Virus record (IMG/VR): IMGVR_UViG_3300025769_000007
Location: 1 to 61,274 of that record
DNA: 61,274 nucleotides
From: a virus
Strand: one strand, 5' to 3'
Notes under the pieces: model-generated
What the model saw: the letters and a program-made list of their open reading frames with translations, nothing else
What the model was told of the DNA's origin: nothing
Database searches by the model: none
Part shown: piece after piece, positions 58,525-60,530 of the stretch
Layout of the letters: each line of letters begins with the position of its first letter
Position numbering within the stretch: the first letter of the stretch is position 1
Position numbers and translations under genes: made by a program

Positions 58525-58893
58525 TCAAGACCTCTTCCTTTGCTCACTCTTAATCTTCTTACACCCCTCACATCGACAACCGTTTCTATACGCTGTCGTT
58601 GAGGGGCAAGACCTTGATTTACCTGCCCTGGCAGCCCTGTAGTTACAACTCTTGTGAGAGAAAGCTATGTTGTCAATATCAAAAAACAAACCCCTAGGAT
58701 CTTCTGAGTGAAGCCAAGGGGTTTTATGTTCTACAGTGAAGTCATCACACGACTCTATTTCAGCACCACACTGATAACACCAGTGCATATCTAATCTCTT
58801 CGCAAACTCAAACAATAAGTTCTTCTTTAACCTGTTTGAAGCAGTGCCAGGATCCATACCCAACTGCTTAGTCTTCTCTTGCTTAATTCCCAA
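58525..58893 (-). CDS. HNH endonuclease
   Basis: The 122-residue product shows the zinc-stabilised HNH layout: WCYQCGAEIESCDDF (first Cys pair), FTVEHKTPWLHSED (Glu-His), DIDNIAFSHKSCNYRAAR (Asn ... His ... Cys). A C-terminal NGCRCEGCKKIKSEQRKRS forms a second Cys cluster. The conserved N terminus LGMDPGTASNRL lies upstream of the only ATG (58857), so translation probably starts at TTG 58893. HNH proteins often assist terminase cutting or act as homing nucleases; here it is far from terL. Confidence 0.82.
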   Translation of the reverse strand: MGIKQEKTKQLGMDPGTASNRLKKNLLFEFAKRLDMHWCYQCGAEIESCDDFTVEHKTPWLHSEDPRGLFFDIDNIAFSHKSCNYRAARAGKSRSCPSTTAYRNGCRCEGCKKIKSEQRKRS

Positions 58894-59490: not shown

Positions 59491-59523
59491 TTTGACACGT
59501 ATTGTTTTTTATTCGTACATTTG
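59482..59523 (+). promoter_or_regulatory. Promoter of the large non-coding RNA / early arm
   Basis: TTTG (59491-59494), 21 bases, then TACATTTG (59516-59523) is a full match to the Bacteroidota promoter consensus. Transcription would begin near 59530. GTAAAATAATTTGAC (59482-59496) overlaps the -33 box and resembles the palindrome found at the 1505 and 4134 early promoters. Confidence 0.75.
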
Positions 59524-59529
59524 TCCCAA

Positions 59530-60105
59530 CAATGATTCAATATCGTTGTCGTTCTTTAACATACTGATTCAGATATAGCACACGTGATGGTTGTGGCAAC
59601 GTCCCTAGGGATTAGCAGTAAGACCACGTTAACCTAGTGTAGCATCTGACTATCAAGTCTCTTTCGAGGGTGTTGAGATAGCATATCAGTAATAGACCTT
59701 TAGCTTGATTGAGGGTCGTAAGTCTTAGTCACGATACGTGGCAGTAGCATTGCCTACCTAAACGTATTAGAGCAATAATTCAATCAGCGTTTGTCAGTAT
59801 CGAATCAACTGAACGGAAACCACTGCCGACAACCAAGTGGGCTTGGATAGACCAATAGGCTATCATCAAGTTAGGTAAAGCACCATAGGGGATGTAAGAA
59901 ATCCGTACCGATTAATATGGGAAGTCTATCAGAGGGGATACTGATGATAGGTGGTAAGCAATTGAAGTGCCACCTTGATAGGTATGAAACTAAGTGGCAG
60001 TTAGTTTGAAGCAAGATAGACACCACGCCTTTGTGTGTTAAGGCGTGACTAATAACAACACACAAACTCCTTTTGATTTGGTGGGGGAAGTTTCCCCCAT
60101 CTTTT
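59530..60105 (+). ncRNA. Large structured non-coding RNA, about 576 nt
   Basis: No open frame of protein-like character exists here, and GC content is clearly higher than in flanking genes. The region is bounded by a consensus promoter and a terminator. Many helices are visible: ACGTG/CACGT (59582/59615), GTTG/CAAC (59590/59597), CTGA/TCAG plus CTATC/GATAG (59646/59677), TGATTGA/TCAATCA (59706/59780), ATACGT/ACGTAT (59734/59762), CCAAG/CTTGG (59833/59842), GATAG/CTATC (59846/59860), CTATCA/TGATAG (59926/59945), GGTGGTA/TGCCACC (59950/59968) and CACGCCTT/AAGGCGTG (60024/60040). The last one's 8-nt loop pairs with 60057-60064. It is not rRNA, tmRNA, RNase P or a group I or II intron by their core motifs. 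Size and phage setting recall the large ornate RNAs ROOL and GOLLD, but I cannot establish identity. Confidence 0.75.
60080..60105 (+). terminator. Terminator of the non-coding RNA
   Basis: A 9-bp stem GGTGGGGGA/TCCCCCATC (60080-60088 with 60093-60101, one G-T pair) with loop AGTT is followed by TTTT. It ends the non-coding RNA; some readthrough may reach the gene at 60195. Confidence 0.8.
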
Positions 60106-60194
60106 AAAGCTACCTAAGGCAGTTACAAGTCTGCATAAAAGCTGAGTAGAGGAAACAAATCAATAAACTAATCATTAATCTTAAATTATTTACT

Positions 60195-60530
60195 ATGGAA
60201 AGTGTAAGAGAATTACTAAATGAACTGAATACATATTCAGTAAAGGATGCAAACGCAATCAATAAAAAGGTACTATTTAAAAATGGTATTGAAGTAACGT
60301 ATCATGTCAAGAATAATTTGCAAAATGAAGATATGGTATTCCAAGCAGTACTTGTTATATCTTACAAGAATAGTGAGCCTATCGTATGGGGATGCACCAC
60401 AAATGAGGATAACTACCAAGTGGTTAGATGGTTTGAGAGGAAAGATGCTGGTATGCTTCAAAAGAAGAACAAGCAGAGAGAGACAGACACTCGAATATTA
60501 GCATCACTAATTGATGTATCGAAGTTATAA
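60195..60530 (+). CDS. Hypothetical early protein, 111 residues
   Basis: The first protein gene after the structured RNA starts after aaattatttact. The product is mixed alpha/beta (MESVRELLNELNTYSVKDAN, then VFQAVLVISYKNSEPIVWGC) with a basic C-terminal helix. It is followed by a G6/C6 hairpin, so it forms a short transcription unit. No family is recognised. Confidence 0.7.
   Translation: MESVRELLNELNTYSVKDANAINKKVLFKNGIEVTYHVKNNLQNEDMVFQAVLVISYKNSEPIVWGCTTNEDNYQVVRWFERKDAGMLQKKNKQRETDTRILASLIDVSKL

Follow-up and report, generated by a model that had tools for sequence, protein, structure and literature searches.

The perfect 8-bp hairpin with a complementary tail at positions 60024-60064 of the window (the whole stretch of DNA analysed here, 61,274 nucleotides of the virus record IMGVR_UViG_3300025769_000007) lies in what comparison with related phages identifies as a large noncoding RNA of about 580 nt (about 59528-60105). 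The reading that we favour, and hold to be fairly probable, is that of a large structured phage RNA which is trimmed by a ribozyme and in which the pairing between loop and tail locks the 3' domain. The pseudoknot is probably real and conserved but, taken alone, ordinary; what stands out is the RNA together with the boxA-like element and the variant twister ribozyme at its two ends. The features used throughout the text are the following:

59491-59523, + strand: predicted Bacteroidota-type promoter, TTTG-N21-TACATTTG, with a predicted RNA start near 59528
59529-59549, + strand: leader hairpin directly before the boxA-like element (helix 1, 74% paired)
59551-59569, + strand: boxA-like antitermination element GTTCTTTAACATACTGATT, conserved in 12 of the 12 members covering it
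59566-59690, + strand: variable 5' domain (helices 59569-74/59644-49 and 59650-54/59677-81)
59691-60021, + strand: conserved core with helices P3-P12 (closing helix 59924-30/60015-21)
60024-60047, + strand: pseudoknot stem 1, in which 60024-60029/60042-60047 are conserved and the pairs 60030-31/60040-41 are not
60032-60039, + strand: loop strand of putative stem 2 (TGTGTGTT), from homologue comparison and a shuffled-tail test
60057-60064, + strand: tail strand of putative stem 2 (AACACACA), from the same comparison and test
60083-60100, + strand: 3'-terminal hairpin, terminator-like in the window, from homologue comparison
60101-60152, + strand: variant type-P1 twister ribozyme (Rfam RF03160, 43.6 bits, E 4.9e-8)
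60195-60530, + strand: first small downstream ORF (111 aa, no known family), heading a same-strand early region

The RNA family and its structure

Members of the family were traced in IMG/VR through the small protein encoded downstream of the RNA (two contigs) and then with DNA patterns taken from a conserved stretch. Including the window, 13 distinct contigs were found and confirmed with an nhmmer profile. The last three pattern scans of IMG/VR returned no new member (for the last scan, among the matches listed), and the family looks complete within that database at the sensitivity used. Since the terminases are 86-95% identical to that of the window in every record in which a terminase was seen, the members were considered to form one phage clade. 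The small genes flanking the RNA differ among the contigs that carry it. By terminase the nearest named phages are MW202828 (47.6%), Maribacter phage Panino and the Flavobacterium elemo phages, from which we infer that the host is most likely a Bacteroidota bacterium. The RNA was absent from MW202828, elemoF_6-3D and Panino when these were searched with nhmmer and with a covariance model of the core. About 395 Bacteroidota genomes, a set holding no positive control, gave one 29-base blastn match and no covariance-model match, a pattern scan of genome contigs gave unrelated matches only, and comparison of the DNA of the window with phage records revealed no real similarity.

Rfam had no match in the window at the gathering level, and none of its families matched the body of the RNA even at a permissive threshold. 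The GOLLD model (RF02032) matched neither in the window scan nor at the locus in six records, the ROOL model (RF03087) neither in the window scan nor in a model search run without a positive control, and ARAGORN predicted no tRNA in the window or at the homologue loci. In the part of the literature covered, no description of such a combination of RNA, boxA and twister was found, and the RNA family is likely new.

A hand-checked structure of 123 pairs was paired in 94.6% of the cells of alignment A4, compared with 33-39% when the strands were slid by 1-3 bases. In this alignment 44 pairs had changed on both sides compared with 19.9 in shuffled alignments, and none of the 500 shuffles reached 44. 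The core alignment (A2) had 97.1% of cells paired and 32 pairs changed on both sides, and RNAalifold likewise returned many covarying helices. Because the single-sequence folding energy is unexceptional (z -1.14), the case for an RNA rests on comparison. A coding reading of the region was rejected; no ORF spans it, it contains no long ORF and its indels are not in multiples of three.

Conservation is highest in the core, where positions 59691-59930 share 81-97% identity with the window in the eight members measured. The 5' domain has been exchanged as a block among the phages, with one version in L064 and L027, another in L036 and L044 and a third in L007 and L020 (handles denote member contigs), and the core has not. 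In L036, L044, L020 and L140 the sequence of the leader hairpin is replaced and a hairpin can still be drawn.

Stem 1 and the putative loop-tail pairing

The original prediction described the arrangement from the window alone, and its description was accurate. The strands CACGCCTT (60024-60031) and AAGGCGTG (60040-60047) are perfectly complementary 8-mers, the loop TGTGTGTT is the exact reverse complement of the tail AACACACA, and a 9-base linker (60048-60056) places the start of the tail at the tenth base past the hairpin. It was also right to call such a match unlikely by chance: 0.06 cases of this 8+8 type are expected per window (first-order Markov sequences of the same length, both strands), and the case found is unique in the 61 kb window when both strands are scanned. 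The region occurs as a single copy in the record. The original placement of the arrangement at the RNA's 3' end agrees with the position of the ribozyme, 36 bases past the tail.

Among the homologues, six pairs of stem 1 are retained by every member covering it (100% of cells paired) and two of the six have changed on both sides, which constitutes compensatory change; the two U-A pairs nearest the loop lack such conservation. This comparison supports stem 1 well. The putative stem 2 is supported as well, on thinner evidence. In L036 and L044 the loop and tail read TGTATGTT and AACATACA, respectively, and the pair G60035-C60061 is A-U in these two members and in L047 and L020, whose rebuilt 13-base loop still pairs with AACATACA around a single bulged A. 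In L140 the pairing is re-registered to UUGUAUG/CAUACAA; the other nine of the ten twister-bearing sequences keep stem 2 directly or with one bulge. The linker between the helices is variable (ACTAATAAC, ATTAATGAC, ATGAATGAC), with both helices retained. Shuffled tails equalled the observed loop-tail complementarity in 1-23 of 2000 trials for the window, L036, L007, L047 and L020, and in 96 of 2000 for L140. Loop and tail have been replaced together in L027 and L084, where they are complementary at 8 of 9 positions, a value that shuffled tails equalled in 387 and 975 of 2000 trials, respectively. The comparison of loop and tail for compensatory changes, as had been suggested, hence gave a divided answer: one G-C pair has become A-U, and the complementarity in L027 and L084 is at the shuffled level. 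The change in stem 2 amounts to one pair, and the members with AACATACA may perhaps be heirs of a single event in one subclade. Beyond the window, loop-tail complementarity survives sequence change in five members.

The original prediction had offered either an H-type pseudoknot or pairing of the loop with a second RNA molecule. The covariation of stem 1, and of stem 2 at one position, partly supports the pairing itself, but all 16 pairs cannot form at once in one molecule, whereas six plus eight can. By general pseudoknot geometry, an H-type fold with two 8-bp stems would leave both L1 and L2 at zero length; with stem 1 at 6 bp, L1 would have 2 nt and L3 at least 9 nt next to an 8-bp stem 2, which should be tolerable. 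As in an H-type pseudoknot the hairpin loop would pair with a 3' tail; the differences are that the conserved stem 1 here is 6 bp and that the two loop-proximal pairs must open before stem 2 can form in a single molecule.

The same geometry bears on the strongest alternative, a tentative one to which we give clearly less weight, namely that the loop (60032-39) of one copy pairs with the tail of a different copy and that a homo-oligomer like those of ROOL and GOLLD results. Covariation between a loop and a linker proved to be interchain in both of these RNAs (J6/8-L8 in ROOL, L20-J13/15 in GOLLD; PMC12286853), an 8+8 pairing without L1 and L2 nucleotides is awkward within one molecule and easy between two, and the RNA is of similar size and, like GOLLD, is conserved in its 3' part and variable in its 5' domain. 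However, tail and loop are 17 bases apart, the 6-bp stem 1 permits workable intramolecular loops (2 nt and at least 9 nt), and covariance models reveal no relationship to ROOL or GOLLD. The more specific version, in which twister-trimmed copies would build a closed homo-oligomer with each 8-base loop pairing with the tail of the next copy, is slightly more doubtful still. Loop and tail may pair within one molecule or between two.

Predicted promoter, boxA-like element and variant twister at the ends of the RNA

The flavobacterial sigma-A -7 box reads TAnnTTTG (PMC9723704). By itself the promoter motif before the RNA is no rarer than would be expected by chance (3.4 per window), but it is conserved in place in most homologues; we favour a promoter because of this position and conservation and not because of the rarity of the motif. 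The + strand of the window has a single strict promoter match, located before the RNA. The element GTTCTTTAACATACTGATT that follows is very likely a boxA, since the same layout of promoter and element occurs in the 16S leader of a flavobacterial genome (L300), where GTTCTTTAACATATTG stands with a TTTG/TATATTTG promoter 133 bases before the 16S gene. The arrangement is that of this flavobacterial 16S leader, a TAnnTTTG promoter and then GTTCTTTAACATAyTG, except that here the element precedes a phage RNA instead of rRNA. One of the seven matches to the boxA pattern that were examined lies before a 16S gene, several others being near-identical, coding-looking stretches, so the motif is informative mainly through the common layout. 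The window contains no second copy within 3 mismatches. Copies of GTTCTTTNACATAyTG also occur in AT-rich, apparently intergenic sequence away from 16S in L297 and L299 (Flavobacteriaceae), and these may belong to other boxA-led transcripts.

At the other end, twister ribozymes consist of P1, P2, P4 and the pseudoknots T1 and T2 and are cleaved at a U-A step (PMC5408937). The match in the window was obtained at a permissive threshold and its score lies below the gathering score of RF03160 (67.2). Matches were found at the same place after the RNA in 10 of the 12 records tested (E 9e-9 to 7e-11) and were absent from L027 and L084 in this RF03160 search. The scores are 39.5-44.7 bits in all ten, compared with the cut-off of 67.2, and because every one is below it we speak of a variant twister and not of a certified member. 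P1, P2 and P4 all covary, with 100% of cells paired, and the three pairs of T1 between L1 and L4 covary as well (UAC/GUA and UGC/GCA). Features in common with type P1 are P1, P2, P4, T1, the U-A step and the L4 motif CAAG. The element differs from that type in T2, which can be drawn as A60112-C60113/G60129-U60130 where GC/GC is usual, in having no P3, and in its site as a candidate 3' trimmer of a large RNA. The AC/GU T2 together with the altered T1 would account for the low score. Cleavage is predicted between U60105 and A60106, and this would give the RNA its 3' end. Most pairs lose similarity abruptly past the twister; in L003, L041, L064, L036 and L044, which share 96-98% identity with the window across it, the value directly downstream is 28-60%.

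RNAalifold also permits a helix 59552-59560/60146-60154 between the boxA-like strand and the 3' strand of twister P1, which would compete with the ribozyme; its letters are nearly invariant among the members. In the position of the twister, L027 (3389-3545) carries an element whose ends read GGGAAU/AUUCCC and which has a tRNA-like T arm (AGUGG UUCGAUU CCACU); the start of this element is also present in L084 (13710-13741). A known tRNA or tmRNA was rejected for the L027 element, as neither ARAGORN nor Rfam makes a call; that it serves as an alternative processing signal is a guess.

An intrinsic terminator at 60083-60105 was rejected as a conserved feature, L007, L020, L027, L084 and L140 having larger structures there. 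The terminator-like hairpin of the window (60083-60100) appears as a swappable peripheral module, with larger inserts in these five homologues and hairpins such as GTTACTCGCAGTAAC in four.

Small same-strand genes follow the RNA, and transcription probably runs past it into them. An HNH endonuclease gene (phrog_23251; 58525-58893, - strand), possibly a homing endonuclease, lies just upstream of the RNA unit. Four records (G001, G003, G005, G011) hold RNA and helicase on a single unbroken stretch, and there a DnaB-like helicase gene follows 7.9-9.1 kb downstream of the RNA on the same strand; in the window and G004 the two share their orientation and lie at opposite ends, the RNA close to the right one and the helicase close to the left.

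Read-through into the small genes would give the twister a purpose, and it also keeps alive the rival view that the RNA is a cis-acting, put- or EAR-like antitermination leader of an early operon which the twister merely removes afterwards. The distance to the helicase in those four records, the same-strand small genes, the boxA at the 5' end and the window's only strict + strand promoter match all suit such a leader. Cis antiterminators known so far measure roughly 70-120 nt, whereas this RNA has about 580 nt and about two dozen helices, and its conservation peaks in the core and not at the promoter-proximal end; we consider a leader unlikely. Least probable of all is a chance arrangement beside an intrinsic terminator with no pseudoknot, as the terminator-like look of hairpin GGGGGAAGTTTCCCCC followed by ATCTTTT, and the lack of a demonstrable loop-tail pairing in L027 and L084, are outweighed by the larger, U-poor structures that replace the hairpin in five homologues, by the five further members that keep loop-tail complementarity despite sequence change, and by the chance expectation of only 0.06 such cases per window.

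Proposed course and relation to known phage RNAs

In the reading that we favour, the pseudoknot would be part of the 3' domain of a phage-encoded structured noncoding RNA of about 580 nt. Its own Bacteroidota promoter would drive transcription through a boxA like that of an rRNA leader, which would let the polymerase traverse a long, untranslated and structured stretch and continue into the small downstream genes. The variant twister would then cut between U60105 and A60106, which would free the mRNA and define where the RNA ends on its 3' side. Pairing of the loop (60032-39) with the tail (60057-64) would lock the 3' domain next to the last hairpin, and the released RNA would be compact, stable and presumably active in trans.

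Only a handful of large structured RNAs with unknown function are known in phages, and two of these build RNA-only cages. The present family adds one, carried by phages of Bacteroidota that are related to the Flavobacterium and crAss-like podoviruses. It is small enough for cryo-EM and its loop-tail contact is testable. A ribozyme sits where an end-trimming activity would be needed, with an rRNA-style promoter and antiterminator at the other end; the natural roles of twisters are largely unknown, and 3' trimming is a concrete candidate for one.

Like GOLLD (RF02032), the putative RNA is a large phage RNA with a conserved 3' and a variable 5' region and a loop-linker pairing, putative here, recognized by covariation. 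It differs from GOLLD in its length (about 580 nt compared with 800 or more), in the lack of an ARAGORN tRNA at these loci, and in its boxA leader and adjacent twister, neither of which is mentioned in the GOLLD descriptions consulted. With ROOL (RF03087) it shares a length of about 600 nt, a phage origin, pseudoknots and a covarying loop-linker contact, which is putative in the present RNA.
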